Below are positions 3,233 through 60,482 of a stretch of DNA of 64,000 bases, one piece after another. Source of the stretch: an uncultured Winogradskyella sp. (GTDB taxonomy: Bacteria; Bacteroidota; Bacteroidia; Flavobacteriales; Flavobacteriaceae). The stretch lies in NCBI RefSeq assembly GCF_947496485.1, contig NZ_CANMCZ010000002.1, positions 434,001-498,000 of the forward strand, in the 5' to 3' direction. The notes beneath the pieces are model-generated. The model ran no database searches. It was not told where the DNA came from and was given only the letters and a program-made list of their open reading frames with translations. The translations under genes and the position numbers were made by a program. Numbering within the stretch: the first letter of the stretch is position 1; every line of letters starts with the position of its first letter.

Positions 3233-6200
3233 TTAAATGCCCCAATCAGATAGGAACTCCCTTTTACGGGCAGTCTCAATACTTCTTAGATAGTAGTTAA
3301 CACGGTCATCTAATATTTGTATGTAGGGCAGCATCTTTATATCTCCTTTTGCTTGGAGATGATTAATATAGCCATTTAATTCCTCAATCCTACTTTGGTA
3401 CCTAGGGATGATACTACCTGAATAAGTTATGCTAGAAACAACAAAATCCAAATTTCTGAATGTATCAACATCAACTTCTTTATCCAATATTAAGTCTAAA
3501 AACTCGTAACGGTCATTTCTAAAAATTGAAACAACTACGTTAAAGACGGTAAAGATGGCGCTTTTATCAGTTTTTTCACTTAGGTAATCTCTCAAAAAAG
3601 TTAACTGTGTCTCATCATTTGATTGAAAAATCTTGGTTATGGAATCTGAACTGTCGGAAATTCTATGGAATTTATTGGTATAGTCCAGTATCCTCGTAAA
3701 AACCTCTGAATGTTTTTCCATTGTCCAAAGTTTCCGAAAATCATTCTCAAACAATGCGGAATTGGACAAGTAATGCAACTTATCAAAATGTGAATCCATT
3801 AGCTTAACAATGAAACCAGGTTCGATTTCCAATATTGACTTAAGTACCTCCAAAGAATAATCAAAGTGTCTTTCATAGCTATCTACAATAAGATATAAAT
3901 CACAGATTGTTTTGAACTCGCTTTTATATATTTCCGGATAATTCGAGCATATATATTCAAAGAATTCTTTTGGTATATAAACTCTAGATTTTTTAGCCCT
4001 TTTTGATATAGTGCTAAGTACTTTGACCACTACATCGTCAACGTCCTTAAAATATTTTTCAAATCTTTGGAGCAGTTTAGTGATAAACCAAAAGTTCTTA
4101 ATCTGATTGCTCCCCAAATACTTTAAAAAATGGTCAAAATCCTTTTCTCGAAGATTACTATTGGAAATATTTACATGGAGCGTTGGTAGGTCATAGATAA
4201 ACTCCCTCTTGTTTAGAACTGAGCGAAACTTTTCAACCTTATCAAAACCCATCCTTAACTTGGTAAAGAATTTTCTTGGTATATTCGATTCATATCTACT
4301 TCGAGCAAACTTTTGATATAGAATTAGAAATTGATCAAAATCTCTATTACCTAGAAAAACAAGTAGTCTAGAAACTGATTCTGTCACCCTATAAAAATCA
4401 TTAGAAATGAAGTCCTTATTCTCAAGAATGACACTATAATCATTGAAAATTTCAGTCAAATTTTCTAATTCCCATCCATTCAGAAGTGCTTTAAACTTAT
4501 TGTTGAGATAATTCTGGTATTTATCATATTCTAAACGAATCTCTTTCCTCGAAAAAGACCCATCAGTGACAGTATTGTATAGTTTAAAGGCAGAATTGTC
4601 AAGCATTTTCAAAAGTACTTTATCAACTGTAAGACCTAGCCATTCGAGTTTACCAATATATTTTTCAATTAGAACACAATCTATAAATTCATTTTTGTCT
4701 AATTCATTATCAAAAAAGTTTAATATCAAGTCTTTGTCATGAAGAATCACATCTTCATTTTTTTCGTGATAACTTAGGTTCTGCGTGTATTCTAGAATGC
4801 ACTTCTGAACACTAGATTTTAAAGAATCGTTCGAATACTTACTGAAAATGAATTCCCAAAGATTATTTCTGAGTTTTATTTGCTCTTCTGAAAGGAAAAC
4901 AGCATAAGTTCCAATGCTAATTTCTTTCCCGTAACTCGTTGTCGCTCTAAAAGTGTCTTTTAAAAAAGTAGGAGCAATAAACAGAATGAGTTTAGAGATA
5001 AAAATCTCATTTTCTTTAAGCTTTTTGAATAAGAACTTGAACAGTTCAGTCTGAGTTGAATAATCATGATAAAAGGAATTTTTTGACATGACAAAGCTCT
5101 GTACACATGCTTTCAGGAATTTTTGAAATCGCTGTTCACTTCTTAAACAATATTCAAGTAAAACATTCAGTGAAAGGTTAAAGTGTTCTTTTCTTAAATT
5201 TTGAAATTTAAGTAATAAGTCAATCTGTTTGTCACCATAGGAATTAAGATGGTTTTTATTCCAGATTTCGAAATTAAAACCATTATAATCTACTTTTGGC
5301 TCTTTTTCAATCATTTCCGAAATGAACGAAAGTGTCTCAATGGGAATAAAACAATAGAAATCTTTGATGAATGGTAAAGCAATTCTATTACCCCCTCTAT
5401 TTTTCCATGACTCCTTAATATCAGTTTGAACTAGACTGAAAACTTCTTTAAAATTGAAATTGTTTATTTGTTGAATTAAAATCCAACCCAAACCAAATCC
5501 AGCGTCTTTATGAAAGTAAATCTCTAATAACTTTGTGAATGGGATTGTTTTTTCCTTTAAGAAAATTAGAAAAATTAGGTATTCACCAAGAATTTGGTCT
5601 GCTATTTTATATGCATTAAACAATTCATCTGCTATCTCAATTTTGAATAAGGTCTTTAGATGAATTTGAAGTTTTTCTTTATCTATTCCGAAGTAATGTT
5701 CAATCTCCTTTATTTGGTCGGTATTAGAAAAATCTATTGTTCTAAAAAGGGATAAAATACCCATTACCTTTAATAATTCTTGGTCTTCAAATTTGTCAAC
5801 TGTTTCCCTAACAGAAGAAAAATACTCGTGCATTATCTGTGCAGGGTTATTAAGCTTTTCCAGCTCACCTTTGTTACCTGCTTCGGCAGCCATAACAGCA
5901 AGTCTAGGATTACCTTTAGAAATCTCCCAAATTCTGTCAGCCCAATAATCATTGATATTAAAATCATTGGATTGTAGGATTTTCTTAAGCTCTTCCCTCT
6001 GGAAGACCTCGAAGTATATGGTAGTAGGTTTGTCAAGTAAATGCCCTATTTCATGCAGCACGTAATTTCTTATTGTAAGAATTATTTTCAACTTTCCTTT
6101 ACCAGTTCTTTTATTTTTAAAGTTGATTAAGTAATCGAGGTTTGATTTTAATCTATTGGCATCATCTACTAATATAATGTAATCAACATCAGGCAAAAGG

Positions 6201-6943
6201 AAATTTTGTAAGTCGTCCCAAAGATTTAGCACACCATTTGCACGAATAACCTTTGGATGATAGTTGTCGTACTTAGCTAAAAAAATCCTTATTAATTCTA
6301 TAGCGAACTTAGTTTTTCCAGTTCCTGCTGCTCCCGTTAAAATTAGTATGTCCTTTGTATTCAGACTTTCTAGTCCTTCGGAAAGCTCCGTTTCTCTATT
6401 ATAAAATTTGTTTAAAAGAGTGGTAGCAAATTTTGATTTTTGATATTCTTCAATAAACTCAGGCATTTCAAGAATTTGCCATGTATCAATGGGCAATCCA
6501 AGCTTTCGAGCTAGTGAAGGATAGTTTTTGAATATTTGGTTTGCAAAATTTTTTATACTTAACACCTCAAGTTTAGTCTCTTTTGAATATGTGGATAGGT
6601 GCTTTTTTAAGTCATCATAATCAGAGACATCTATAACCGAATTACAAATCAAAATAATCTTTACAATACCATCTTTAGGAACATCTGTCTGTTTAAAGCA
6701 ATGACTGATGTCAGCCTTTAACTTTGATAATATATTATCAGTCTTAGTTGTAATCTCGTTATAAATATAGTAGTCGCCAATCGGAATAAAATTATCTGGT
6801 GTACCAATTTTGGACTTTTCCTTTCCTAATACAAAACCTGTTGGGAAAACGTGAGAATAACGATAAACAAGATATTGTCTACTAAGGTTAGCAAATACAT
6901 CTCCGTTACATTCTTTAAGAGCAGCTTCAATTCTAGTAATCAT
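3233..6943 (-). CDS. STAND-type P-loop NTPase with PD-(D/E)xK-like N-terminus
   Basis: This is a large signalling-type ATPase. Residues 1-150 contain GTPD followed by YYIYNEITTK, a pattern like the PD...ExK core of restriction-endonuclease-fold domains often placed in front of STAND modules. Residues ~185-370 form the NTPase: Walker A GAAGTGKT (about 204-211), Walker B ILVDDANR (about 257-264), a sensor-like LTIRNYV, and a winged-helix region after EISKGNPRLAVMAAE. The remaining ~850 residues are repetitive helical hairpins, as expected for the sensor arm of such proteins. It resembles the nSTAND3 type, many of which are suspected anti-phage proteins. The fold class is secure; the nuclease activity and defence role are inferred. 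No catalytic assignment beyond the P-loop is certain. Confidence 0.8.
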   Translation of the reverse strand: MITRIEAALKECNGDVFANLSRQYLVYRYSHVFPTGFVLGKEKSKIGTPDNFIPIGDYYIYNEITTKTDNILSKLKADISHCFKQTDVPKDGIVKIILICNSVIDVSDYDDLKKHLSTYSKETKLEVLSIKNFANQIFKNYPSLARKLGLPIDTWQILEMPEFIEEYQKSKFATTLLNKFYNRETELSEGLESLNTKDILILTGAAGTGKTKFAIELIRIFLAKYDNYHPKVIRANGVLNLWDDLQNFLLPDVDYIILVDDANRLKSNLDYLINFKNKRTGKGKLKIILTIRNYVLHEIGHLLDKPTTIYFEVFQREELKKILQSNDFNINDYWADRIWEISKGNPRLAVMAAEAGNKGELEKLNNPAQIMHEYFSSVRETVDKFEDQELLKVMGILSLFRTIDFSNTDQIKEIEHYFGIDKEKLQIHLKTLFKIEIADELFNAYKIADQILGEYLIFLIFLKEKTIPFTKLLEIYFHKDAGFGLGWILIQQINNFNFKEVFSLVQTDIKESWKNRGGNRIALPFIKDFYCFIPIETLSFISEMIEKEPKVDYNGFNFEIWNKNHLNSYGDKQIDLLLKFQNLRKEHFNLSLNVLLEYCLRSEQRFQKFLKACVQSFVMSKNSFYHDYSTQTELFKFLFKKLKENEIFISKLILFIAPTFLKDTFRATTSYGKEISIGTYAVFLSEEQIKLRNNLWEFIFSKYSNDSLKSSVQKCILEYTQNLSYHEKNEDVILHDKDLILNFFDNELDKNEFIDCVLIEKYIGKLEWLGLTVDKVLLKMLDNSAFKLYNTVTDGSFSRKEIRLEYDKYQNYLNNKFKALLNGWELENLTEIFNDYSVILENKDFISNDFYRVTESVSRLLVFLGNRDFDQFLILYQKFARSRYESNIPRKFFTKLRMGFDKVEKFRSVLNKREFIYDLPTLHVNISNSNLREKDFDHFLKYLGSNQIKNFWFITKLLQRFEKYFKDVDDVVVKVLSTISKRAKKSRVYIPKEFFEYICSNYPEIYKSEFKTICDLYLIVDSYERHFDYSLEVLKSILEIEPGFIVKLMDSHFDKLHYLSNSALFENDFRKLWTMEKHSEVFTRILDYTNKFHRISDSSDSITKIFQSNDETQLTFLRDYLSEKTDKSAIFTVFNVVVSIFRNDRYEFLDLILDKEVDVDTFRNLDFVVSSITYSGSIIPRYQSRIEELNGYINHLQAKGDIKMLPYIQILDDRVNYYLRSIETARKREFLSDWGI

Positions 6944-10451: not shown

Positions 10452-11324
10452 TTAAGCTTCTGGTTGATTTTGAAGTATTTCAATTTCTGATAATGCACTT
10501 GCAACATCTTGCGAATAAATTGTATTTTGAGAAGTTCCATTCCCAATGAATTCAAAGTTTAGTAAAATTGAGTACATCTTTCGTCTACCATTCCCTCCGT
10601 AGACATAAAACTCATGCTTTACTAATTTAAAATAGGTATTAGAAGAATTTCTAAATATTAGTTTAGTAAGTCCTATTATAGATAAATTATCATAATTTAA
10701 TTCCTCTAACTCATAGTTTTCTAAAAATCTATCTCTAAAACTTGTTGCACTAGGATCTTCTAAATTGTTAGCAATTGTTTGACGAAGTAATGCTTTGTAA
10801 TCTGCAGTATCTTCAGTTTCCGTTTCTGGCCAAGTTATAAACAAAGAAAAATTTTGGGTATGATAAGCTTGAAACTTAAAAATTAAATCTATTTTTTCTT
10901 GAATTGGGACTTTGTTTAAAGATAAATTTCCATCATAATCGAGATTAATTGCATTTACTGGAAACACTCCTTGATTTCCACTCATAATTCTGTGATGATT
11001 AATTCTTAAATATGCACCAATTTCTGTAGTTTCCACAACAGCACCAATCAATTTTGTGCGTAGTTTCATGAATATAGTTGTATTCTTCTCAAAACAAATA
11101 ACCTTTCCTTTTGTAATATTAAAACCACCTGTTTCTGTTTCTTCCCAATCTATTAATCCGGTTTCCTTAAATAATATTAAATCCTGCATCTCCTCTGCAG
11201 GAAATGTAATTATTCCTAACTCCTCATTTTCTGTTAAAACGTCTTGAATAAATTCTACCCATTTATTTCTTATGAAATTTTTATGAGCTGAATTATGCAG
11301 ATAATCTTGAATAATTTCACTCAT
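10452..11324 (-). CDS. Hypothetical protein, last gene of GHKL/methyltransferase locus
   Basis: I do not recognise a domain in these 290 residues. The protein is soluble, acidic and of mixed alpha/beta composition, with no signal peptide. Its start overlaps the end of the GHKL ATPase gene by eight bases, so the two are very likely translationally coupled and probably act as a pair. The segment IHNSAHKNFIRNKW-like N-terminus is basic, while the middle (FSLFITWPETETEDTADYKA) is acidic. Position as the closing gene of a methyltransferase-DGQHR-HEPN-like-ATPase operon suggests a structural or effector subunit, but no sequence motif proves it. Confidence 0.72.
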   Translation of the reverse strand: MSEIIQDYLHNSAHKNFIRNKWVEFIQDVLTENEELGIITFPAEEMQDLILFKETGLIDWEETETGGFNITKGKVICFEKNTTIFMKLRTKLIGAVVETTEIGAYLRINHHRIMSGNQGVFPVNAINLDYDGNLSLNKVPIQEKIDLIFKFQAYHTQNFSLFITWPETETEDTADYKALLRQTIANNLEDPSATSFRDRFLENYELEELNYDNLSIIGLTKLIFRNSSNTYFKLVKHEFYVYGGNGRRKMYSILLNFEFIGNGTSQNTIYSQDVASALSEIEILQNQPEA

Positions 11325-12975
11325 CTATCTCTTTCCAAATATTAATTTTTTTGTAAAATAAATCTCTTAATTTTTGTACATCACCTTCGGATTCTGCAAG
11401 AGAAGATTCAAATATTAAAAAAACACTTTCTAAGTAATCCCAATCCTTCTTTTTAAATTTTTTTGCAATTGACTGATTAACTTCAACTACTGTATTACTT
11501 TTTGTATTTTTTATTATCTTAATAGGAGATTCAACCCTTAAATCACCAGCTGTAACTTTATCTTCCTTGGTTTTTTTCGATACAGTTTTTGTTTTAAACT
11601 CTACTTTTTTTGTACTTAGAATTTTTCTGTCTTCTTTTTTCTTTTCTTCTTTCTTAGTATGATCTCTATCAGATTTTGCGTCTTGGTATAACTCTAATGT
11701 CTTTTTGAATACAATATCGTTTAAATATTTATGCAAAAAATTTTGTAAAGCCAGATAGTGTGGATGAGTAACTCTGAACGACTTCCGGTCAATATTCATT
11801 GCATCTTCTAATCCTTTCTCTATATATATTTCACCAGAAATCCAACTTCTAAATATCATATTTGTATAATATGGGTATTTCATAAAAGAATCATCAAAAC
11901 CATATTGTTCAGCAATAGGCACTTTTTTGATTTTTATTGAAATACCATTTAGTTCGACAGGAAATATAATACCCTTGTTAATATAAAAATATCCTTTTAA
12001 AATAATATCTTCTTCATCCTTTGTCTTAATTTTTTCTTTAAATGAAATACCTTCAAACACATTATCGTTATCTTCAAAGTAAATAGGCTTTTTTAGATAC
12101 ATACCATCTAAATCGACCTTAAAATCTAACAACTTATGTTCATTAATTATATTTGAAATTACTGGATTGCTGTAGCCTAAAATTGGTCCACCTTCTATAT
12201 ATTCAACCGGAATATATGAAGCTAAATCTATAATAAATTTAACATATGCATTGTCTTGGCTGAAAGATTTCAATTTCTTTTTTGTATGAAAAAGCATTAA
12301 ATCTTTCATACTTTTAAAAAATGTGTTGTCTTTGTTTTTTAGAAAAGAAGAGAGATATTGTTGATCATTCAATATGTCCTTTACCGAATCCTTTAATCCT
12401 ACTAATCTTATTATTGTGTAGTGTGCTTTCTCATCTTCTTCTTCATTAATTAAGCTGTATTCACCTTTAATTATTCCATTATCCTCATCTTCATCATCCT
12501 CATCAACACTTATTTTAATTTCTTCCTCAAAGTATTCTTTAAAATTAATATTAGCTGTAAATCGTCTAGCTTCCCCCATTTTTGAAGAAATAATTTCTAA
12601 CTCGTGGCAAATTTCATTTACAGCTATAAAGCCTATTCCTATTTTACCAATTAATGGACGATTTAATAATTCAGATGTTTCTGAATCTTTTCTTTTTGTA
12701 GAATGGCTAATCCAGGCAAATTTCTTGTCAAAGTCAATAGCATTCATTCCTTTGCCATCATCTATGATTGTAATTGTATCATTTACAGGTTTAACTCTAA
12801 TGATCACATTCTTTGCATCAGCGTCATAAGAATTATTTACCAATTCTTTAATACAACTAGCTGGGGAACTATAAATACCAGAACTCAAATCATTAATAAT
12901 TTGAGTATGAACTTTAATATTACCCTTTTGGAGTTTATTGAGTTCTAAATCTATTTCATTGGTACTTTTAGTCAT
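11317..12975 (-). CDS. GHKL (Hsp90/MutL/MORC-like) ATPase
   Basis: The N-terminal ~180 residues have the full GHKL ATP-binding set: CIKELVNNSYDADA (N-box, E44/N48/D52), IDDGKGM (71-77) and LIGKIGIGFIAV (108-119). An acidic run DEDDEDED follows near 155, then a transducer-like region including FRVTHPHY. The C-terminal third has a Lys-rich linker and ends in a domain beginning IAKKFKKKDWDYLESVF (503-519), which closely resembles residues 128-144 of the neighbouring 430-residue protein. MORC/MutL-like ATPases are known in prokaryotic restriction-modification-type operons (paraMORC group), fitting its place beside a DNA methyltransferase. ATP-driven dimer clamping on DNA is the expected role for the family; the specific function here is inferred. 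Confidence 0.85.
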   Translation of the reverse strand: MTKSTNEIDLELNKLQKGNIKVHTQIINDLSSGIYSSPASCIKELVNNSYDADAKNVIIRVKPVNDTITIIDDGKGMNAIDFDKKFAWISHSTKRKDSETSELLNRPLIGKIGIGFIAVNEICHELEIISSKMGEARRFTANINFKEYFEEEIKISVDEDDEDEDNGIIKGEYSLINEEEDEKAHYTIIRLVGLKDSVKDILNDQQYLSSFLKNKDNTFFKSMKDLMLFHTKKKLKSFSQDNAYVKFIIDLASYIPVEYIEGGPILGYSNPVISNIINEHKLLDFKVDLDGMYLKKPIYFEDNDNVFEGISFKEKIKTKDEEDIILKGYFYINKGIIFPVELNGISIKIKKVPIAEQYGFDDSFMKYPYYTNMIFRSWISGEIYIEKGLEDAMNIDRKSFRVTHPHYLALQNFLHKYLNDIVFKKTLELYQDAKSDRDHTKKEEKKKEDRKILSTKKVEFKTKTVSKKTKEDKVTAGDLRVESPIKIIKNTKSNTVVEVNQSIAKKFKKKDWDYLESVFLIFESSLAESEGDVQKLRDLFYKKINIWKEIDE

Positions 12976-13113
12976 TATTAGAATATCTAGTACTTTTTCA
13001 ACTTAAAGTGAAAGTCTAATTTAGTCATTTTTTTTAACTAAATAATTCATCATATAAATTGCGTCCGATTAGATAGTATTAAGTCAATAAATCTGCAAAG
13101 CATAATAATTAAT

Positions 13114-14406
13114 TTAGAAATTAGAAACATACATAGGATGTCTATCATAATCATATAGAAATTCATGAAGTAGTCTTTCTTCTTTTTGCAAATTATTGGT
13201 CAATTTTGATAAATCTTTAACCAATACAATACCCATCCTAAGTATCGCTAATGATAATGTTAGTGAGAAATCGCTTTTTAGTTCAAAATTATTTAATCCT
13301 TCATGTATATTGTCATATACGCCAAATTTCCTATCTATTCTATATTCGTGTAAATCATCAAATATCCACGAATTTCCCCAATAATGAATTGAATTTCTTT
13401 GCTGAGAAAAATTGCCAACATCTTGTTTTAAAATACTAGCCACAATTTCCTTATTCCAAGGATCAATTTTAAAAGATTTTAAAATTCTTTTAAATATTTC
13501 CCATGTTTCTCGATGTTTTACACCATAAGAGTATTCTATAATATCTAAACAAACTTCATTATCAGAAATTGATAGCCCGTTATTATTTACACCAAAAGAA
13601 TCAATGATATATGATTTCCCTTCATAATCAACAATTGAGATACCCATCAAACTAATTATTGATCTTGCAGCTAATAAAGCTCCTTGATATGAGCTTGATA
13701 AAGCCCAAGTTTTAAGACCTTGATGTGCATGTAATTCACCTGCACTAATGATATGAGAGGCTTTATTTAATAAAAACAAACCTTTCTTTACAGTGAGTGA
13801 TCTTATTTGCTTATTAAGTTTACCTTTTGTAACAATACTAACTGGCTTTCCTTCATTTAATAACTCCGCATTACTAAAACTAAGTTGTTTTATTAATTGT
13901 TCAAATCCGTATAACTCTGATATTTTTTCTTCCTCTTTTTGAATAGAAGAATCAATGAAAGGAATATGCTTAATCCATACTTCCCTTAATTTATTCCAAT
14001 CCCTCTTTTTTATTTTTTTAGCAATTTTTTCAAAAGATGATTTAGATTTCTTAACGCCTACAATTGATTCTGACTTTTTTATATTATTTGTTTCAGTTGC
14101 ATTGTTTTTATCTATTTTTTCTTTTAATTCTTCTTCTTTCTCAGATAAAATAGATTCATTTTTTTTTATTATGCTATTTATATCTTCTTCTTCGTCTTCT
14201 GTACAAGTTTTAATTAAGGATTTATAATCTTTAATTTCTACTTTAAGGCTATTAATTTGATTAACTAATATTACAATTGGTTTTAATATTGAATACTCTT
14301 TAAGTGTAACTGCATAAAGTCTAGTATCATTATATAAATTGGGATCTATAAATTTGTTATCAAGAACTTTATACCGATCTAAAAAATGCTGATATTCAAA
14401 TTCCAT
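13114..14406 (-). CDS. Coiled-coil protein with HEPN-like C-terminal domain
   Basis: Residues ~45-105 are a charged coiled coil (SEKEEELKEKIDK). Residues 128-144 (IAKKIKKRDWNKLREVW) match the C-terminal domain of the GHKL ATPase encoded next. The C-terminal half contains WALSSSYQGALLAARSIIS, typical of the first long helix of HEPN domains, and later QQRNSIHYWGN, which resembles the HEPN RNxxxH nuclease motif but is one residue short between Arg and His. HEPN proteins are common RNases in defence and toxin systems. The resemblance is by eye, so the domain call is tentative and catalysis is uncertain. The gene starts 13 bases after the DGQHR gene and is 138 bases before the ATPase. Confidence 0.7.
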   Translation of the reverse strand: MEFEYQHFLDRYKVLDNKFIDPNLYNDTRLYAVTLKEYSILKPIVILVNQINSLKVEIKDYKSLIKTCTEDEEEDINSIIKKNESILSEKEEELKEKIDKNNATETNNIKKSESIVGVKKSKSSFEKIAKKIKKRDWNKLREVWIKHIPFIDSSIQKEEEKISELYGFEQLIKQLSFSNAELLNEGKPVSIVTKGKLNKQIRSLTVKKGLFLLNKASHIISAGELHAHQGLKTWALSSSYQGALLAARSIISLMGISIVDYEGKSYIIDSFGVNNNGLSISDNEVCLDIIEYSYGVKHRETWEIFKRILKSFKIDPWNKEIVASILKQDVGNFSQQRNSIHYWGNSWIFDDLHEYRIDRKFGVYDNIHEGLNNFELKSDFSLTLSLAILRMGIVLVKDLSKLTNNLQKEERLLHEFLYDYDRHPMYVSNF

Positions 14407-14419
14407 AATGGTTTCCTAA

Positions 14420-15451
14420 TTAGATCAATTTTATACTTCCACTTCCATCTGTACTAATATCCATTAACCTAGCGTCTAAGGTAACTTTAAAATCATTACC
14501 TGCTTGAATTTCAGCAGCACTGCCTGAACCCAAATTTCTAAAATCATCAAAATCAAAATCTTCAACTACTTTTAAAATTTTATTTATATCCACTATCCTA
14601 AAAGCATTATGATTTTTCATAGTATAATCAAATACAGGGCCCAAAACATTGATCATAGCACCAAACCCAATTGTCATGAAAAAAATAGAATCAATTGGAT
14701 CACTTTCATTTGGATAAATTTGAAAAATAGATTTAAAATAATTATTTAAAATAAGATACTGCTCGTCAAAAGTATAAAGTCTAAACTTTCCTTTTTCTCT
14801 ATGTACGATAGGATGAATTTTTCTTATAAAATTTGTCAAAGAAACTTCTCCTTTTTTTGGTGAATTTACAATTGCGATTCTTCCATAAAATGGAGAGTCT
14901 TCGTCTTTTCTAAATTTTGTCGCTAAATCATATGCTCTTTCGGTAGCAATATCTTTTGCAGACATCTTTGGCGGTAAATAATTCAATAAATCATAAAGCA
15001 ATGATGTTGGGACACCTTTGCCTTCATTATTAATTGTTACGAACTGTCTTACTTGTTCTTTGATTGGTAGATTCAAAAAAGCAACTACAACCAACTCCAC
15101 ATCTTTTTTAGCTTCATTAGCACCAGCAAGTCTATGTTGTCCATCAATAACCCATCCTGATTTTTCATTTGGAATGATTATTTCAGAACTATCAGCAGAT
15201 AATTTTACTTTATCATCAAATGAAATTAAAATATTATTAGGTATAACATTACCATTATCAAAATAATCAGCAATAGATTTTGTTCTAGAAGGAGATAGAA
15301 CTCTTTGATAACCAATCTCTTTATCTGGATCTCTTTTAGCAATTTGAACCACTTTCCATAATTCCTTTGCACTTATTTTAAAACATACTAGTTGAGCTCC
15401 ATTTTGATTAGCAATTATACATTTGTAATTCTGTTTAGCTTTTGCACTCAT
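14420..15451 (-). CDS. DGQHR-motif (DndB-like) protein
   Basis: Residues 101-107 read VIDGQHR, the defining motif of the DGQHR family, which includes DndB, the regulator of DNA phosphorothioation operons. The preceding GYQRVLSPSRTKSIADYF is also typical of the family. Residues around FVTINNEGKGVPTSLLYDLL match the usual follow-on region. Many DGQHR proteins occur in DNA-modification or defence loci. There are no dnd sulfur-transfer genes here, so a phosphorothioate role is not supported. The gene sits 42 bases after the methyltransferase and 13 before the coiled-coil/HEPN-like gene, in a clear operon. Confidence 0.85.
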   Translation of the reverse strand: MSAKAKQNYKCIIANQNGAQLVCFKISAKELWKVVQIAKRDPDKEIGYQRVLSPSRTKSIADYFDNGNVIPNNILISFDDKVKLSADSSEIIIPNEKSGWVIDGQHRLAGANEAKKDVELVVVAFLNLPIKEQVRQFVTINNEGKGVPTSLLYDLLNYLPPKMSAKDIATERAYDLATKFRKDEDSPFYGRIAIVNSPKKGEVSLTNFIRKIHPIVHREKGKFRLYTFDEQYLILNNYFKSIFQIYPNESDPIDSIFFMTIGFGAMINVLGPVFDYTMKNHNAFRIVDINKILKVVEDFDFDDFRNLGSGSAAEIQAGNDFKVTLDARLMDISTDGSGSIKLI

Positions 15452-15493
15452 GGCTTATTTTATCTTTAGGTGTCTTCTTATTTATTTTATATA

Positions 15494-16774
15494 TTATTCG
15501 TAATCTTTTTCATTTAAATCAACCTTTATATTACTAATTATAATGGCTGTTGATGGCGATCCACTAAAGTTGCCTTTTTCTATTTTTTCAGAAAATTTAT
15601 GTGATCTCTTTTCTGTATAAATGTACACATATTTTTGCTTAACTCTTGATAAAAATGATTCGTAATTATCTGATATATAAAATATTGGCTCAATACCAAA
15701 ATTTGACAAAGGCTTTTTTCTAATTATTTCATTAATTAATTTTTGTATCGTAATTGAACTTTCCGAAGTTAGGTTTAGTATGTTGTATTCTGCTACAACT
15801 AGTGCATTTTTCTTAGTAGTTTTCCGTCTAGTTATAGTAGTACTTATTCTTATTTCTTTTATCCCATTATTCTTAGATAAATTCTTGTAGAGTAACCTAG
15901 CGTATTTAAGTACACGCAAATCAATAATCAACTTTTCAAATGCTTCTTGCTCAAATGTGTTTTTTTTAGAAAATAAAAAATCTTTTTTATTTTCCTTAAG
16001 TGTTTTCTTTTGATATTTTTTGAACATTTTAATATATTCCTTGTTCAATTCGAACCCAATATATTTTCTATTCATACTTTCTGCTTTGGCAAGAACTGCA
16101 CCAGATCCTGAGAAGCAATCTAATACAATGTCAGTCTCATTTGTAGTAATTTTTAGTATTTGTTCAATTAAGCCTTCAGGCAATGGGCAAAAATGATCAA
16201 TATATCCACTTCCCCAGGAACCTTGGACTGGAATTCCAAATTCCCAAATTGAGTCAGGACTTTTTCCTTTTGGATTATATCTTTCAGGATATTTAACCCA
16301 CCATCGCTTTAAAGATTTAAAATCCCTTACTCTATCTATATAAAAATTGAATGATTCGGATTTTGAAAATACGAGAATATATTCAAAAATACTCCTCATT
16401 TGTCCTGTGTTAGACCATGGCAGAGTTCTATCCTTTTTCCAAATAATTACTTCTTGCAGTTTCCAACCTACTTCTTTTATTTTACTAGAAAAATCGAATG
16501 GTAGTGGCACTACTTCACCATTCCTTTTATATGAATCTATTACAACCCATAGAGTTCCATCATCTTTTGTTATATCAAAAACGTTTTTAAAAACCTTCTT
16601 TAAATCTTCTAAATACTCATCATATTCTTGACCATATCCTATTTGAAGCTCAGAATCATAATCTTTCATGTCAAAATATGGAGGTGATGTGATTGTAACA
16701 TCTACTACTTTGTCCTTAACTACTTTATTTATTAGTCTAGAGTCTAGGTTGTGTACTTTAAATATATTTTTCAT
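15494..16774 (-). CDS. Site-specific DNA methyltransferase (TSPPY type)
   Basis: The catalytic motif TSPPY is at residues 29-33 and the SAM-binding motif DIVLDCFSGSGAVL at about 216-229, giving the permuted (catalytic-first) beta-class order used by N4-cytosine and N6-adenine methyltransferases. SPPY is most common in N4-cytosine enzymes, but the target base cannot be fixed from this. About 150 residues after the core form an extra C-terminal domain (IRISTTITRRKTTKKNALVV onward) that may recognise the target or bind partners. It is the first gene of the leftward operon and presumably marks self DNA or makes the modification the other proteins read. No adjacent classical restriction endonuclease was seen. 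Confidence 0.9.
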   Translation of the reverse strand: MKNIFKVHNLDSRLINKVVKDKVVDVTITSPPYFDMKDYDSELQIGYGQEYDEYLEDLKKVFKNVFDITKDDGTLWVVIDSYKRNGEVVPLPFDFSSKIKEVGWKLQEVIIWKKDRTLPWSNTGQMRSIFEYILVFSKSESFNFYIDRVRDFKSLKRWWVKYPERYNPKGKSPDSIWEFGIPVQGSWGSGYIDHFCPLPEGLIEQILKITTNETDIVLDCFSGSGAVLAKAESMNRKYIGFELNKEYIKMFKKYQKKTLKENKKDFLFSKKNTFEQEAFEKLIIDLRVLKYARLLYKNLSKNNGIKEIRISTTITRRKTTKKNALVVAEYNILNLTSESSITIQKLINEIIRKKPLSNFGIEPIFYISDNYESFLSRVKQKYVYIYTEKRSHKFSEKIEKGNFSGSPSTAIIISNIKVDLNEKDYE

Positions 16775-16837
16775 TAAATAAAAATGCCACCAATAATGAT
16801 GACAATTGCTAAATTTACTTTCTTTACCAAATCACTT

Positions 16838-16845
16838 CAAATATA
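16838..16845 (-). promoter_or_regulatory. Probable -7 element for methyltransferase operon
   Basis: Read on the minus strand, TATATTTG matches the Bacteroidetes TAnnTTTG consensus and lies ~63 bases upstream of the methyltransferase start. A matching -33 TTG is not clear at the expected distance, so this is a partial match. Confidence 0.4.
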
Positions 16846-16917
16846 CAAAAGGAATTTAATAATAAATTGACATATTAAAGAGTCTTTCTTTTATTTAAAT
16901 AATCACTATAAGAGTAA

Positions 16918-17640
16918 ATGGAATTTAATCCACACATAAGCAAATCAAAACCAGTACTAAAAGAATCTAGAATAATTCTAGGTAGTTTTCCGACTTGGTC
17001 ACTAAGCTATTCAGAGTTGAATCAAACAAATGAAAGCAAGGAGATTATAAGAACAAAAAACAATGATTTACAATTCTTCTTTGGAAGTTCAATTAATTTA
17101 TTTTGGGATTGGTATTCTACATATATTGACAATAAAGTCTCATCTAAAGATATTAATTCGATTCAGAAGAGCTTAAAATCAAAAGAGATAGGAATTACAG
17201 ATTTAATAATTAGCTGTGAGCGAAAAGGTGTTTCCTCTTTGGATAAACATTTAACCAAAAGAACATATAATCATGATTTTTTTCAGCATCCCAAAAAAGG
17301 AGAGTGTTTAAAAATTTTGTGTACTTCAAAAGGATTAATGAATGAGATGTTATTAAATAATAAGTTTTTTAAAATTCATCCTGAATTAAAAATTAATCAA
17401 AAAAACTCTTTTGAATTACAAAAAAGAATAATTAGAAAGACTAATGGTAATTCAAATAATGTCAAAAACCCGTTTTGCAAATCAATAGAAACCGAGTTTG
17501 GTGGTATAATTGAATGTATTTCAATACCTTCTCCTGGAAGTCCATACAGAAAGTTAGTAGATTTTGGTTTTGATTCAGAAAACTCAAATAAATTTTTAGA
17601 CAATTATTTAAACGTAGTTTTTGATTGGTTTATAAGTTAA
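16918..17640 (+). CDS. UDG-superfamily DNA glycosylase-like protein (family 6-like)
   Basis: The N-terminal IILGSFPTWSLS (19-30) and FFFGSSINLFWDW (53-65) match the pattern of family 6 enzymes (hypoxanthine-DNA glycosylase; typically ILGSFPS and YYxxxxNxFW). IGITDLIISCERKG matches the following conserved strand, and IPSPGSPYR near residue 210 occupies the place of the second active-site loop. These proteins excise altered bases from DNA. The gene is divergent from the methyltransferase operon with a 143-base gap. A glycosylase next to DNA-modification genes could be a restriction effector acting by base excision, as shown for the antiviral glycosylase Brig1, but no target can be predicted here. 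Ordinary base-excision repair remains possible. Confidence 0.7.
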   Translation: MEFNPHISKSKPVLKESRIILGSFPTWSLSYSELNQTNESKEIIRTKNNDLQFFFGSSINLFWDWYSTYIDNKVSSKDINSIQKSLKSKEIGITDLIISCERKGVSSLDKHLTKRTYNHDFFQHPKKGECLKILCTSKGLMNEMLLNNKFFKIHPELKINQKNSFELQKRIIRKTNGNSNNVKNPFCKSIETEFGGIIECISIPSPGSPYRKLVDFGFDSENSNKFLDNYLNVVFDWFIS

Positions 17641-18502: not shown

Positions 18503-18916
18503 TTAGAGATTAAATACTTGATTTGGTTCTTTAAAACTTTTAAATTCCAACATATAACCATTTGGATCTTTAACGAAGAACGATAAATGTTCGCCAGGCA
18601 TATTTTTTAAAAAAGTTGCTTGGTGTACTAATTCTAATTCTAGTTTGTTTAATGTAGAATACGTAATTCCCCATGTATCAATATCTAATATAATTCCAAA
18701 ATGAAAAGAAGGAAGAATCTTTCCTTCAAATACATAATTAGGGTTATTAAAATTAAATTTACCTGCTTGTGTAAAGGTAATTTGATGTCCGTATAGATTA
18801 ATATCTATCCAGTTATTAGAGTGTCTTCCTAAAACAGCTCCTATAGTTTCTATATAAAAGCTTTTGGTTTCTTCAATATCTGTACACGGTAATGAAAGGT
18901 GAAATAAGGTTTTCAT
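18503..18916 (-). CDS. VOC-superfamily (glyoxalase/dioxygenase fold) protein
   Basis: The 137 residues show the paired beta-alpha-beta-beta-beta modules of the vicinal oxygen chelate fold: FHLSLPCTDIEETKSFYIET at the start, HFGIILDIDTWGITY at the second module and FFVKDPNGYMLEFKSF at the end. His residues in FHLS and FHFG and the Glu in MLEF are in the usual metal-ligand positions. VOC proteins include glyoxalase I, fosfomycin-resistance enzymes and extradiol dioxygenases, and the substrate cannot be read from sequence. It is the last gene of the polyamine operon, 12 bases after the preceding small gene, so its link to polyamine metabolism may be only transcriptional. Confidence 0.85.
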   Translation of the reverse strand: MKTLFHLSLPCTDIEETKSFYIETIGAVLGRHSNNWIDINLYGHQITFTQAGKFNFNNPNYVFEGKILPSFHFGIILDIDTWGITYSTLNKLELELVHQATFLKNMPGEHLSFFVKDPNGYMLEFKSFKEPNQVFNL

Positions 18917-18928
18917 TTGATTATTTAT

Positions 18929-19189
18929 TTATATAAGTTTTAATTTCATTATTCTAAAAATCAAAAAATCTTCATCATCTAAATCATTTATAATTTCCTT
19001 ATAGGTAACTTCAAATGTATCACCTACATACTCATTGCTACGAAGATCAAACTCTTCTAAAACTGCGGTACTCACTTCTTCAAAAACAATGAGCTCGTCA
19101 TAAGACAATCTAAACGTAAAAAATCCATTGTGATGCTTTAAAAACACACCTTCTTCAGTTCTAATTTCTTCTGTATTATAGTAATTCAT
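18929..19189 (-). CDS. Small hypothetical protein, 86 aa
   Basis: No family recognised. It is an acidic protein without signal peptide or membrane segment, with a beta-rich first half (GVFLKHHNGFFTFRLSYDEL) and FEVTYKEIINDLDDEDFLIF near the end. It lies between the 99-residue acidic gene (47-base gap) and the VOC gene (12-base gap) on the same strand, so it is probably co-transcribed with the polyamine genes. Confidence 0.65.
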   Translation of the reverse strand: MNYYNTEEIRTEEGVFLKHHNGFFTFRLSYDELIVFEEVSTAVLEEFDLRSNEYVGDTFEVTYKEIINDLDDEDFLIFRIMKLKLI

Positions 19190-19236
19190 TATAAAATTAT
19201 TTTAAATTAAACACTCCTTATAATTCATAATAGATA

Positions 19237-19536
19237 TTAATTATCTTCCAAAAGATCATCGTTTAAAGTATCTAAATCTATATTTTCATCCTCTTCTTTA
19301 TCTTCATATACTTCATCATTGTCATCAAAATCCTCCATAGCTTGTATTAAGCGCTTACCTACCTTTACAAGATATATTGTATCCTCTGTTTTCACTTCAA
19401 CAGCTTCAATAAATTCATTTTGTGCATTTCTAAAGGCTATGATATCCTTATCAGCATATCCATCAGGAAATTTCTCTACTAAAAGATTTAAAATATCCTC
19501 ATTCAACTTTTGATAATCTACAATTTTACGTATCAT
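19237..19536 (-). CDS. Small acidic protein, 99 aa, in polyamine operon
   Basis: No family name assigned. The first ~70 residues look like a compact alpha/beta domain (VDYQKLNEDILNLLVEKFPD, then VEAVEVKTEDTIYLVKVGKR). The last ~28 residues are almost entirely Asp, Glu and Asn (DKEEDENIDLDTLNDD). It starts 11 bases after the deoxyhypusine-synthase-like gene. An acidic tail could bind a polyamine or basic partner, but this is speculation from charge alone. Confidence 0.7.
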   Translation of the reverse strand: MIRKIVDYQKLNEDILNLLVEKFPDGYADKDIIAFRNAQNEFIEAVEVKTEDTIYLVKVGKRLIQAMEDFDDNDEVYEDKEEDENIDLDTLNDDLLEDN

Positions 19537-19547
19537 TTTATTTTTTA

Positions 19548-20522
19548 TTACATGCCTAACAAATAAGCAAAGATTAGCGGAGCAACAATCGTAGCATCAC
19601 TCTCAATTATAAATTTTGGTGTATTAATATCTAATTTCCCCCAAGTGATTTTTTCGTTAGGAACTGCTCCAGAGTACGACCCATAGCTGGTTGTAGAATC
19701 ACTTATTTGGCAGAAATAACTCCAAAAAGGTGTATCTGTTCGCTCCATATCTTGATATAGCATTGGTACAACACATATTGGAAAATCACCAGCTATACCT
19801 CCACCGATTTGAAAAAATCCTATTCCATTTGTAGAATTATCAGAATACCAATCCGCAAGAAAGGTCATATACTCAATTCCAGATTTCATAGTACTGGCTT
19901 TAAGTTCTCCTTTAAGTACATAACTTGCAAAAATATTTCCCATAGTACTATCTTCCCATCCTGGGCAAATTATAGGTAGATTCTTTTCTGCTGCTGCATA
20001 CATCCATGAATCTTTTAAGTCTATTTCATAGTATTCTTCTAATACACCAGACAATAGCATTTTATACATATACTCATGTGGTAGATAACGTTCTCCTTTA
20101 TCATTTGCATCTTTCCATATTTTATAAATATGCTGTTGTAATCTTCTAAATGCTTCTTCTTCAGGAATGCAAGTATCTGTAACACGATTAAGCCCTTGTT
20201 CTAATAAATCCCATTCTTGTTGCGGAGTTAAATCACGATAATTAGGAATTCGTTTATAATGAGAATGTGCCACCAAGTTCATAATATCCTCTTCTAAATT
20301 TGCTCCTGTACAAGAAATGATTTGCACTTTATCTTGTCGTATCATCTCGGCAAAAATTTTCCCTATTTCTGCTGTACTCATTGCACCTGCCAAAGACACT
20401 AACATTTTTGAGCCATTATTTATTTGAGTTTCATAAGCTTTTGCAGCATCAACAACTGTAGCAGCATTAAAATGCAGAAAGTACTCTTCTATAAAGTTTG
20501 TAATTGCACCTTTAGTAATCAT
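19548..20522 (-). CDS. Deoxyhypusine synthase-family enzyme (probable polyamine aminobutyl transferase)
   Basis: The sequence follows deoxyhypusine synthase throughout: an NAD-binding region with MLVSLAGAMSTAEIGKIFAE, then CPGWEDSTMGN, FFQIGGGIAGDFP and, near the C-terminus, KITWGKLD, where the Lys corresponds to the catalytic lysine of the family (WGK). Bacteria lack the eIF5A target, and bacterial members are thought to move the aminobutyl group of spermidine to another amine, for example making homospermidine. Its gene overlaps agmatinase by 11 bases, which in turn overlaps arginine decarboxylase, so a polyamine role is well supported. The exact acceptor is not known. Length (324 aa) is near the family norm. 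Confidence 0.9.
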   Translation of the reverse strand: MITKGAITNFIEEYFLHFNAATVVDAAKAYETQINNGSKMLVSLAGAMSTAEIGKIFAEMIRQDKVQIISCTGANLEEDIMNLVAHSHYKRIPNYRDLTPQQEWDLLEQGLNRVTDTCIPEEEAFRRLQQHIYKIWKDANDKGERYLPHEYMYKMLLSGVLEEYYEIDLKDSWMYAAAEKNLPIICPGWEDSTMGNIFASYVLKGELKASTMKSGIEYMTFLADWYSDNSTNGIGFFQIGGGIAGDFPICVVPMLYQDMERTDTPFWSYFCQISDSTTSYGSYSGAVPNEKITWGKLDINTPKFIIESDATIVAPLIFAYLLGM

Positions 20523-21450
20523 CGTCTTTATTGAATTTTGAAAAATTATTAGTTATGGTATTGTCCTGATAAGCGTTTTCATACTCATCTTCTAAAACAT
20601 CATCTTGAAACTTATAGCTTAACATTTTGTAATAAAGCTTAGCAGCAAGGAAGTCAGAAGACTTATCAATGCCATTTGGGCATAATTCAACGATATCAAA
20701 ACCAACAACATTCTTTTCTGTAAAAACTTGCTTTAAAAAATCTAATGTTTCGTACCAAAGTAAACCGCCAGGTTCAGGAGTCCCAGTGCTTGGCATAATT
20801 GAAGGATCAAATGCATCTAAATCGAATGTTATAAATACATCATCTGTCATCTGATCTATTGCTGAATCCATCCAAGAATCATCTACCGCCATTTCATGTG
20901 CAAAATAGGTTTTGTCTAAATTCATAATAGATTTCTCTTTTATATCCATAGACCGAATACCTACTTGAATTAAATTAGTATTCTGACTCGCTTCATAAAC
21001 AGCGCAGGCATGATTGCAAGAACTACCAGCATAACTTTTTCGTAAATCTGCATGCGCATCTATGTGCAACACTGTTAAGCTTGGAAACATCTCATTAAAT
21101 GCTCTAATTGTACCAATAGATATTGAATGTTCACCACCAAAAATGGTAACAAACTTGTTTTTTTTGATATATCTTTTAGTCTCTCTATGCACAACATCTA
21201 CCATAGCTTCTGGTGTAGCATTCATCGTTATAGATTCTGCCAGATATATACCGTTTTTATAAACTTCAGAGTCAGTTTCAATATCATATAATTCCATATT
21301 CTCAGAAGCTTCCAAAAATGCTTTAGGCCCTTTATCTGCACCTTTTTGCCACGTGCTTGTTCCATCATAAGGGACAGGTATTAATACAATCTTAGCATGC
21401 TCTAATTTTGCTAATTCTTCGGGTATTCCAGCGTAAGTTTTAATTTCCAT
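20512..21450 (-). CDS. speB: Agmatinase
   Basis: A ureohydrolase of 312 residues with the manganese-binding motifs of the arginase/agmatinase family: FGGEHS, LHIDAHADLR and FITFDLDAFDPSIMPSTGTP. The enzyme hydrolyses agmatine to putrescine and urea in the cytoplasm. It overlaps the arginine decarboxylase gene upstream by 11 bases and the deoxyhypusine-synthase-like gene downstream by 11 bases, giving the sequence arginine to agmatine to putrescine to a larger polyamine. The C-terminal tail (DNTITNNFSKFNKDDDY) is longer and more acidic than usual. The assignment as agmatinase rather than arginase rests mainly on the operon context. Confidence 0.92.
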   Translation of the reverse strand: MEIKTYAGIPEELAKLEHAKIVLIPVPYDGTSTWQKGADKGPKAFLEASENMELYDIETDSEVYKNGIYLAESITMNATPEAMVDVVHRETKRYIKKNKFVTIFGGEHSISIGTIRAFNEMFPSLTVLHIDAHADLRKSYAGSSCNHACAVYEASQNTNLIQVGIRSMDIKEKSIMNLDKTYFAHEMAVDDSWMDSAIDQMTDDVFITFDLDAFDPSIMPSTGTPEPGGLLWYETLDFLKQVFTEKNVVGFDIVELCPNGIDKSSDFLAAKLYYKMLSYKFQDDVLEDEYENAYQDNTITNNFSKFNKDDDY

Positions 21451-22906
21451 TTAATTTATGTGCTAATTGAAATTCAATATTTGAGTTTTGGAATATATTT
21501 TCGTTAGGTTTTTTATCATACCCTAAAATTTTAAGCAACTCTTCGCTTTTTTGTTGCTCTTTAAATAATCGTGTTGTGATAATACCGTGTTCATCTTTAT
21601 CAATTATAATATGTTTTGGAGCAGGAATTAAACAGTGTTGCAGACCTCCATAACCTCCAATAGTTTCTTGATAAGCACCAGTATTAAAAAATCCGATATA
21701 TAAGGGTTTTTCTTTATGGTATTTTGGTAAATAGATAGCATTCATATGTTGCTCACTATTATAATAATCATCACTGTCACAGGTTAAACCTCCGAGAAGA
21801 ACACGCTCATAAGAATCATTCCAACGGTTTATTGGCAACATGATAAAACGTTTGTTAATAGCCCAAGTATCTGGAAGTGTTGTGATAAATGAAGAATTTA
21901 TCATATTCCATTTCTCCCTATCGTTTTGTTGCTTTTGATATAGCACTTCATAAATTGCTCCACCACTTTCCCCAACTGTAAAACTTCCAAATTCTGTGAA
22001 TATATTAGGAACATCTACACCTTCTTCTTCACAAGTCAATTTAATTTGATTGATGATTTCATCAATAATGTATTCATAATCAAAATCAAATGCTAATGAG
22101 TTTTTAATAGGGAATCCACCTCCAATATTTAAACTGTTTAACGATGGACAAATCTTTTTTAAACTTGTATAAACTTTAAGGCATTTTAAAAGCTCATTCC
22201 AATAGTAAGCATTATCTCTAATGCCTGTGTTAATAAAGAAATGAAGCATTTTAAGCTGTACTTTCGGATTATCTTTAATCTGCTTTTTATAAAAAGGCAC
22301 TATATTTTTATAACCTATTCCTAATCTAGAGGTGTAAAACTCAAATTTGGGTTCTTCTTCTGCAGCAATACGAATGCCTATATTATAGTTTCCTTGGATC
22401 TCATTTGAGAGTAAATCAATCTCTTCGTAATTATCAATAATTGGAATACAATTTTGATGACCACTATTTATTAGTCTTGCAATATTAGTTACATATTGTG
22501 CTCGCTTAAAACCATTACTAATAATAAAGGTATTGTTGTTTATTTTGCCTTCTTCTTTTAAATTCTCAACGATATCTATATCAAAAGCAGAGGACGTTTC
22601 AATATGAATATCATTTTTTAAAGCTTCGTTCAAAACATGCTTAAAATGAGAGCTTTTTGTGCAATAACAATAATTATAGTTCCCATTATAATTATGCTTC
22701 TTGATGGCGTTCTCAAACCACGCTTTCGATTTATTTATATTATCAGAAATCTTAGGTAAGAATGTAAATTTTAAAGGTGTTCCATAAGTCTCAACCAATT
22801 TGTTTAGGTCAATATCATGAAAGCGTAAGTGATCTTTTTCAAGAATAAATTCTTCTTGAGGAAAATCAAAAGTTTGATTGATTAAATCAATGTATTTTGT
22901 ATTCAT
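21440..22906 (-). CDS. speA: Arginine decarboxylase (PLP, alanine-racemase fold)
   Basis: This is a fold-III PLP decarboxylase of 488 residues, the shorter form usual in Bacteroidetes. Visible elements are the PLP-lysine region YNYCYCTKSSHFKHVL, IGGGFP (phosphate-binding loop), TEFGSFTVGESGG and GLTCDSDDYY, which has the catalytic Cys-Asp pair at the dimer interface. It converts arginine to agmatine, which the downstream agmatinase would use. It is the first gene of a six-gene leftward operon. An inverted repeat and a plausible -7 element lie ~70-85 bases upstream. Related ornithine or lysine decarboxylases share the fold, but the agmatinase neighbour makes arginine by far the most likely substrate. 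Confidence 0.9.
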   Translation of the reverse strand: MNTKYIDLINQTFDFPQEEFILEKDHLRFHDIDLNKLVETYGTPLKFTFLPKISDNINKSKAWFENAIKKHNYNGNYNYCYCTKSSHFKHVLNEALKNDIHIETSSAFDIDIVENLKEEGKINNNTFIISNGFKRAQYVTNIARLINSGHQNCIPIIDNYEEIDLLSNEIQGNYNIGIRIAAEEEPKFEFYTSRLGIGYKNIVPFYKKQIKDNPKVQLKMLHFFINTGIRDNAYYWNELLKCLKVYTSLKKICPSLNSLNIGGGFPIKNSLAFDFDYEYIIDEIINQIKLTCEEEGVDVPNIFTEFGSFTVGESGGAIYEVLYQKQQNDREKWNMINSSFITTLPDTWAINKRFIMLPINRWNDSYERVLLGGLTCDSDDYYNSEQHMNAIYLPKYHKEKPLYIGFFNTGAYQETIGGYGGLQHCLIPAPKHIIIDKDEHGIITTRLFKEQQKSEELLKILGYDKKPNENIFQNSNIEFQLAHKLNGN

Positions 22907-51193: not shown

Positions 51194-51261
51194 ATAGAAG
51201 TTAAGCCCCTTCGCATCTTTATATGCCCCAATTAAAAATGCGAAAACCAAAAACTAATACC

Positions 51262-59481: not shown

Positions 59482-59498
59482 AACTAAAAGATACTAAG

Positions 59499-60482
59499 AT
59501 GAAAAAAATAACACTATATATACTACTTTTGGTTATGTCTTATGGCTATAGTCAAGAGTTAAACTTGCCAGTATTCACGCAATATTTAGCAGATAATGAT
59601 TTTGTCATTTCACCAACCTATGCAGGTATTGGGGATAACTTAAAAATTAGAGCCAATGGATTAACACAATGGGTTGGAATAAAAAATGCGCCAGATAATC
59701 AATCCCTATATGCAGATTTTAGAATAGCCGATCGCTCTGGTGTTGGTATCTCTGCTTACAATGATAAGAATGGTAACACACGACAAAAAGGTGTAAAATT
59801 TTCATTTGCACATCATTTGACCTTAGATTATAAATCGAAACAGTTCCTGTCTTTTGGGTTATCTTATAATATTAATAGTTTTAGAATAGATATTGAAAAT
59901 TTTAATACTACCTATGAAACACCCATCATTGACCCGAGCATAACTGATGATAGATCTATTTCTAATAATAATTTTGATTTTGGATTTTTATACCGTTGGA
60001 AGGCATTTTATCTGAGTATGAATGCTAATAACATAATGAAAAAGGATATTGATGTTGAAAGAGGTGCAGAACCAAACCAACTTTTAAATTATCAAATCTA
60101 TACTGGTCTTGTTTTAAAGAGTAATAGCAACAAGGATGTAGAGTTTGAACCTTCCATATTTTTCCAAATGTTTGATAGTGACAATCGCTCTAGTACAGAT
60201 GTAAATTTTAAATACCGGAAATTTAATAGAAAAGGAGATTATTATTTTTTAGGAGGATCATACCGTTTTCTTAATGATCAATTTTTTAAACCTCTAAATG
60301 TTGGACCAATAGCAGGTATTACGTTTGATAAGCTGTTCTTTGCGTATTCGTATCAGTTTACTATAAATGACTTAGCTGGCTTTAATTCAGGGACACATAT
60401 GGTTACTATTGGGTTGGACTTTCTACAAGGAGCAAGTAATTGTGCTTGTACTAAAGGAACTAGTCAGAGTTATTATAGGTAG
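59499..60482 (+). CDS. sprF: PorP/SprF family outer-membrane protein
   Basis: A 327-residue protein of the standard SprF type: signal peptide MKKITLYILLLVMSYGYSQE, then LPVFTQYLADNDFVISPTYA, NGLTQWVGIKNAPDNQSLYA and GVGISAYNDKNGNTRQKGVK, the conserved early segments of the family, with a C-terminal barrel. SprF is required for export or surface attachment of SprB. It begins 17 bases after the giant adhesin stop, so it is almost certainly its dedicated partner. The symbol follows the family; orthology to F. johnsoniae sprF was not tested. Confidence 0.9.
   Translation: MKKITLYILLLVMSYGYSQELNLPVFTQYLADNDFVISPTYAGIGDNLKIRANGLTQWVGIKNAPDNQSLYADFRIADRSGVGISAYNDKNGNTRQKGVKFSFAHHLTLDYKSKQFLSFGLSYNINSFRIDIENFNTTYETPIIDPSITDDRSISNNNFDFGFLYRWKAFYLSMNANNIMKKDIDVERGAEPNQLLNYQIYTGLVLKSNSNKDVEFEPSIFFQMFDSDNRSSTDVNFKYRKFNRKGDYYFLGGSYRFLNDQFFKPLNVGPIAGITFDKLFFAYSYQFTINDLAGFNSGTHMVTIGLDFLQGASNCACTKGTSQSYYR

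Follow-up and report, generated by a model that had tools for sequence, protein, structure and literature searches.

A conserved DGQHR–HEPN-like gene pair at the centre of an unusual restriction-modification-like operon in an uncultured Winogradskyella species

The 64,000-nucleotide stretch analysed here, referred to as the window, spans positions 434,001 to 498,000 of contig NZ_CANMCZ010000002.1 from an uncultured Winogradskyella sp. (G000:C2:434001-498000). Five minus-strand open reading frames (ORFs) at 10452-16774, P0001 to P0005, make up a real operon of restriction-modification (R-M)-like type and unusual composition, and a divergent plus-strand ORF, P0006, starts at 16918. At the centre of the operon lies a conserved and apparently unnamed two-gene module, comprising a DGQHR-domain gene and the gene for its HEPN-like partner, while the first three genes constitute a real unit that recurs in phages. 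An earlier reading of the window, made from the sequence only, had proposed a DNA-modification or defence operon lacking a characterised match. No named system matching the operon was found in PADLOC, NCBIfam or the literature searched, which fell short of most subscription journals and held no account of the DGQHR–HEPN-like pair either. The complete five-gene set is nevertheless a single instance, seen once only, in this genome, and the label "new system" is therefore not established. The six ORFs were recovered at the positions given below, and recomputed gaps in the gene order P0001 to P0005 were again 42, 13, 138 and -8 bases.

15494..16774, minus strand: P0001, methyltransferase, 426 amino acids (aa); PF01555 and motifs
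14420..15451, minus strand: P0002, DGQHR protein, 343 aa; TIGR03187, PF14072 and PADLOC DpdB
13114..14406, minus strand: P0003, HEPN-like partner of the DGQHR protein; family profile, alignment A3, signature, AlphaFold, and PF05168 in relatives
11317..12975, minus strand: P0004, GHKL (MutL/MORC/HgiDII-like) ATPase, 552 aa; PF13589, N-terminal region of NF050001, and boxes
10452..11324, minus strand: P0005, unassigned protein, 290 aa, its start overlapping P0004 by 8 bases; partial match to NF047698
16918..17640, plus strand: P0006, divergent UDG-superfamily-like protein, 240 aa; weak match to TIGR04274 and two motifs
16775..16917: divergent intergenic region, 143 bases, likely the operon promoter region

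The DGQHR protein and its HEPN-like partner

P0002 matches TIGR03187 with 139.4 bits (cut-off 58.85; E=1.9e-40) and the DndB family PF14072 with 52.3 bits (cut-off 29.1; E=5.9e-14), and its QR, DGQHR and FxxxN motifs are intact at residues 49, 103 and 137. PADLOC places it closest to DpdB (E=2.6e-32). As a relative of DndB and DpdB, it is expected to adopt a ParB/sulfiredoxin-like fold. DndB has been reported to repress dnd transcription, including that of dndCDE (PMC4507180; PMC10853773), binding of both ATP and GTP has been found for a DndB-like protein (PMC12704722), and the DNA-modification protein DpdB has been described as a ParB-like ATPase (PMC12839542). DGQHR-type motifs also occur in GmrS/DUF262, a proposed sensor of modified DNA (PMC4619093; PMC12137116). 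No DndB-type operator (TACG-N10-CGTA) was found in the window, including the 143-base divergent intergenic region.

Of the 44 loci in which the DGQHR protein scores above 150 bits, 42 have an ORF for a partner of about 290-345 aa directly downstream of the DGQHR gene (L063 being counted by hand, as its partner had overlapped the filter). The contexts of these pairs vary. At L118, a Dnd phosphorothioation locus, the genes dndC, dndD and a dndE-ATPase fusion precede the pair; on the L047 plasmid the gene order is methyltransferase, NotI-family endonuclease, DGQHR and partner; and several plasmid and phage pairs have no adjacent methyltransferase. Because it occurs in dnd, NotI-type and methyltransferase-free contexts, the pair is a unit common to modification systems. 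The fusion gene of L118 (4379-5932) joins a DndE domain (PF08870, 3.4e-22) to an AAA/HerA-like ATPase (AAA_10, 5.2e-11). A different arrangement was observed at L123, L121 and L146, where a D12-type (Dam) methyltransferase gene is followed by that of a 780-aa protein containing a DGQHR domain internally; at L123 these two genes are located near a cytosine methyltransferase and GHKL pair.

P0003 consists of an N-terminal helical hairpin (about residues 28-115) and a HEPN-like domain (about 124-430), and an AlphaFold model built on 11 sequences (mean pLDDT 71) likewise has the hairpin at 28-115 followed by a mostly helical domain. The HEPN-like label given in the sequence-only reading is retained for the second domain as a weaker call than the other family assignments. 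It is favoured by PF05168, which weakly matches three of 11 family members at E<=1 (best E=0.0021), and by the HEPN protein TM0613 (1o3u), which had the highest Foldseek probability among the matches listed (0.72, E=0.63). Against it, the Pfam HEPN models do not match P0003 itself and Foldseek gave no significant match. PADLOC had no match for P0003 or P0005.

The family signature in P0003 comprises Y240, G255, H298, W302, R337-N338-x3-Y342 and W347. Across 40 downstream ORFs and P0003, in an alignment that tends to bring like residues together, Y240 and Y342 are found in 41/41 sequences, G255 in 39, R337 in 38, H298 and W302 in 37 each, and N338 in 31. Some distant partner ORFs individually fall below profile significance, and for this reason, together with the alignment bias, the reach of the family at these partners rests on position, length and motif. 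The catalytic Rx4-6H motif is absent: the family has RNxxxY, with Tyr in place of His in all 41 sequences, and P0003 has R-x3-H only. Since this holds throughout the family, RNase activity of the usual kind, or a classical toxin role, is unlikely, and the earlier suggestion of the HEPN-like protein as an RNase effector is not supported. The conserved His298 makes some other chemistry conceivable.

Two further similarities of P0003 were seen. Residues 10-100, in the hairpin, weakly match the release-factor PCRF domain (E=1.8e-4), probably through coiled-coil similarity. A docking stretch shared with the C-terminus of P0004 (E=0.005, reached by 8 of 1000 local shuffles) was considered, but the family profile scores P0004 no higher than shuffles, which leaves it as just a lead.

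HEPN RNases are common companions of R-M systems, and one HEPN family was tabulated in 2013 as sharing an operon with genes for a ParB nuclease and a DNA methylase (PMC3710099), so the association of HEPN, ParB and methylase genes is not wholly new. DndB and DpdB themselves are still puzzling, having the look of a regulator, an NTPase or a nuclease, and a conserved partner with a near-invariant signature across modification chemistries offers a direct handle on the role of DGQHR proteins.

The methyltransferase trio in phages

P0001 matches PF01555 (N6_N4_Mtase; E=2e-45) and supplies the operon with the DNA methyltransferase gene that an R-M system requires. It is of the beta-class N6/N4 type, motif IV (TSPPY, residue 29) preceding motif I (FSGSG, residue 221). 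The family calls made beforehand from the letters, namely a TSPPY methyltransferase, a DndB-like DGQHR protein and a MORC/MutL-like ATPase, are all borne out by PF01555, TIGR03187/PF14072 and PF13589 together with intact motifs.

Using the DGQHR alignment A1 as a query of viral contigs, we obtained 55 loci. In 12 of these (L054-L065), a TSPPY-type methyltransferase gene, a DGQHR gene and a gene for a P0003 relative (290-330 aa) follow one another in this order within a few bases, and two Acinetobacter records with a phage label (L050 and L051) contain the same trio, giving 14 phage or prophage records in total. L050, L051 and L060-L062 carry identical genes, leaving 10 distinct trio loci. The order methyltransferase, DGQHR, HEPN-like thus recurs beyond chance, and the co-occurrence of families anticipated earlier holds for this trio, whereas the complete set was seen only here. 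The DGQHR proteins of the trios are 40-49% identical to P0002, and their P0003 relatives are only 16-26% identical to P0003, yet are united by one profile. The methyltransferases share 25-33% identity with P0001 and, at 285-310 aa, lack its C-terminal extension (about residues 275-426). No restriction gene or nuclease was seen near the phage trios, some of which adjoin a phage repressor.

In the phage trios the two members of the pair vary closely together and have diverged much more than the accompanying methyltransferase. For 11 loci, the window included, the identity matrices of the DGQHR and HEPN-like proteins correlate at r=0.90, a value reached in 0/2000 permutations, whereas the methyltransferase matrix correlates less with either of them (0.47-0.49). 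At L060 and L064 the methyltransferases are 90% identical, while the DGQHR proteins share 41% and the HEPN-like proteins 24% identity; in the DNA of these loci, 80% similarity begins about 70 bases before the methyltransferase gene and ends at its stop codon. A near-constant methyltransferase with a diverged pair behind it, and similarity that stops at the methyltransferase end, suggest that the pair is swapped by cassette exchange or evolves very fast. By sequence, the window holds another combination of the pair with a different methyltransferase. The same pattern was also noted across L060, L064 and L065 (methyltransferases 90-93%, DGQHR proteins 41-61%, HEPN-like proteins 24-44% identical).

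Added genes, genomic setting and probable function

P0004 matches PF13589 with 66 bits (cut-off 25; E=4.5e-18), and its N, G1 and G2 boxes (ELVNNSYDA, DDGKG and GKIGIG) are intact, which places it broadly with the MORC/paraMORC GHKL ATPases. Its match to NF050001 (BbrUII/HgiDII; 91 bits, cut-off 550) covers positions 3-173 of 659 only, in the N-terminal region. GHKL ATPases of the MORC/paraMORC group have been described in R-M operons with methyltransferases (PMC2292703), and relatives of P0004 from Bacteroidota and plasmids mostly adjoin a 5-methylcytosine (m5C) methyltransferase gene, sometimes with a Vsr-like gene; part of these neighbours were named by reading ORF starts rather than by profile scan. 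An m5C methyltransferase beside the GHKL gene is also the layout of HgiDII-type R-M.

The sole match of P0005 is to NF047698, the PP_RS20740 family (E=3.3e-5, residues 122-263), which was not found in 198 genomes or in controls; in the literature, PP_RS20740 appears in a paper on furfural tolerance. A single-sequence fold model of P0005 was unusable (pLDDT 34.5). P0004 and P0005 were not seen together elsewhere in the plasmids, phages and genomes searched, nor was a GHKL gene seen with the trios elsewhere or a trio with the GHKL relatives elsewhere. The GHKL gene and P0005 are local additions to the trio and may form a separate unit.

The divergent P0006 had been put forward as a family-6-like glycosylase and as part of the system. 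Its general UDG-type motifs are present (GSFP at 22 and PSPGS at 204), but it scores only 20.4 bits against TIGR04274 (cut-off 80; E=4.5e-4, residues 54-119), below the level for UDG family 6. No relative was found in plasmids or viral contigs, and among 59 other genomes there was one weak match, in a stop-filled frame. As none of these searches showed conserved linkage, P0006 was rejected as part of the operon's system. Single-protein pattern scans of the viral contigs for P0002 to P0006 gave no match, the patterns lying on poorly conserved stretches.

To the right of the operon, synteny with a genus mate (G163) and a family mate (G095) covers a polyamine-type block at 18503-22906, mostly at 48-91% identity, while the gene content directly left of 18503 differs between the window and these two genomes, which places the operon in a variable segment. 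Searches with DGQHR and with P0005 showed the operon in none of 68 other genomes of the genus, and P0003 has no relative among 397 other genomes of the order. The G+C content of the operon is 0.27-0.28, compared with about 0.32-0.36 in much of the window outside it. From this setting we infer that the operon was horizontally acquired and is probably foreign. Neither an integrase nor a boundary of insertion was identified for it. A candidate STAND-type defence protein, a 1236-aa nSTAND3 NTPase (PF20720, 1.5e-8), is encoded 3.5 kb from the operon at 3233-6943 on the minus strand. Elsewhere in the window, two overlapping minus-strand ORFs at 24528-28246 have the appearance of a single secreted glycanase broken by a frameshift, the upstream ORF having a signal-peptide-like start and the downstream ORF a C-terminus like those of the type IX secretion system (T9SS). 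At 51223-60482 on the plus strand, a 2752-aa secreted repeat protein precedes a PorP/SprF-like protein, which by eye is the arrangement of a gliding-type T9SS adhesin.

Of the functions that the operon might have, defence is the likeliest. Our preferred explanation, to which we give a little less than an even chance, is an acquired R-M-like defence cassette built on the methyltransferase, DGQHR and HEPN-like module with an added restriction arm. P0001 would mark self DNA, and the pair, an NTP-binding ParB-fold protein and its dedicated helical partner, would act as a gate or reader coupling nucleoside triphosphate (NTP) state and DNA-modification state to a response. P0004 would close on unmodified DNA, as is thought for MutL/HgiDII-type enzymes, and its closure would switch on P0005, the only candidate for an effector (or adaptor). 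This explanation is supported by the trio recurrence, the pair in 42/44 loci, the co-variation, the m5C methyltransferases beside GHKL relatives, the absence from other genus members, the variable segment, the low G+C content and the nearby nSTAND3 gene, as well as by the published nucleotide binding of a DndB-like protein and the ATPase description of DpdB. If true, it would add a new effector combination, GHKL with P0005, to R-M-like defence. Several points weigh against it: the five genes were seen together once only; the gap of 138 bases is wide enough for two separate systems to adjoin there; phage trios lacking a nearby restriction gene imply that the core may only modify DNA; profile scans recognised no nuclease domain in P0003, P0004 or P0005; P0005 has uninformative homology and no relatives in plasmids, phages, 197 genomes of the phylum or 68 of the genus; and the literature searched held no experimental defence data on this gene combination.

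A broader proposal, plausible though we lean against it, is that the pair is a mobile two-gene module that functions regardless of the kind of DNA mark, an NTP-gated reader or switch common to methyltransferase, phosphorothioation and NotI-type systems, of which the operon would be the version with an added GHKL ATPase and effector. Less probable than the preferred explanation is that two separate units, a modification trio derived from phage and an independent two-gene system of GHKL and P0005, by chance adjoin each other on one strand. The 138-base gap between P0003 and P0004, set against 42 and 13 bases inside the trio and the 8-base overlap of P0004 and P0005, is consistent with such a division, as are trios without GHKL and GHKL relatives without the trio elsewhere. 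However, all five genes share a strand, no terminator-like site was found in the 138-base gap, and P0004 does not have its usual adjacent cytosine methyltransferase, for which the methyltransferase of the trio could stand in. The weak P0003/P0004 similarity described above points the same way, albeit without family-profile support.

It is unlikely that the operon performs modification without restriction, the pair tuning how much methylation occurs or where it is placed, in the manner of DndB in phosphorothioation, in a cassette for epigenetic control or for shielding an incoming element from host restriction. Repression of dndCDE by DndB (PMC4507180) and phage trios without a nearby nuclease, some beside a phage repressor, would fit this role, but the pair also occurs without an adjacent methyltransferase in many plasmids and phages, the copy in the window lies on the chromosome, and regulation would have no need of a GHKL ATPase and a further gene. 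The HEPN-like domain, and the frequency of HEPN RNases in R-M loci, including the family with a ParB nuclease and methylase (PMC3710099), might suggest an RNase toxin for abortive infection restrained by the methyltransferase and DGQHR protein, like PrrC by PrrI, but the substitution of Tyr for the catalytic His makes this highly improbable.

Comparison with named systems

DndB and DpdB share with P0002 the DGQHR domain with its QR, DGQHR and FxxxN motifs, and their operons likewise include a DNA-modification enzyme. They differ in that the operon described here has a HEPN-like partner and a methyltransferase as its modification gene. P0002 scores 103.9 bits against the DpdB equivalog NF041060 (300 required) and 106 bits against DGQHR_dnd_1 (450 required); the operon contains no dpd genes, and no DndC, DndD or DndE family member was found among the window proteins scanned, which sets it apart from the Dnd system. 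The MZA system is not matched either, the score for the MzaB equivalog being 14.4 bits against 850 required.

The genes listed with the MAE_28990 HEPN family are of the types found here, namely HEPN, a ParB fold and a methylase (PMC3710099). The family is, however, listed as keeping the Rx4-6H motif, and no member of the P0003 family matches a MAE_28990 Pfam model at E<=1.

In common with HgiDII/BbrUII and the paraMORC R-M systems, the operon joins a GHKL ATPase with intact boxes to a DNA methyltransferase (PMC2292703; Iyer et al., 2008), but its methyltransferase is of the N6/N4 rather than the m5C type, and it has neither a helicase nor a known nuclease. By regular expression, P0004 contains neither the S5 motif of MORC proper (GhXhhpXXRhl, taken from PMC2292703) nor the ExxxH of paraMORC2. 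The GHKL-Shedu protein VcSduA (PMC12137116) carries a fused nuclease and is without a methyltransferase, and P0004 and P0005 have no match to DUF4263; VcSduA likewise possesses a GHKL ATPase, which has been proposed to control its nuclease in phage defence.

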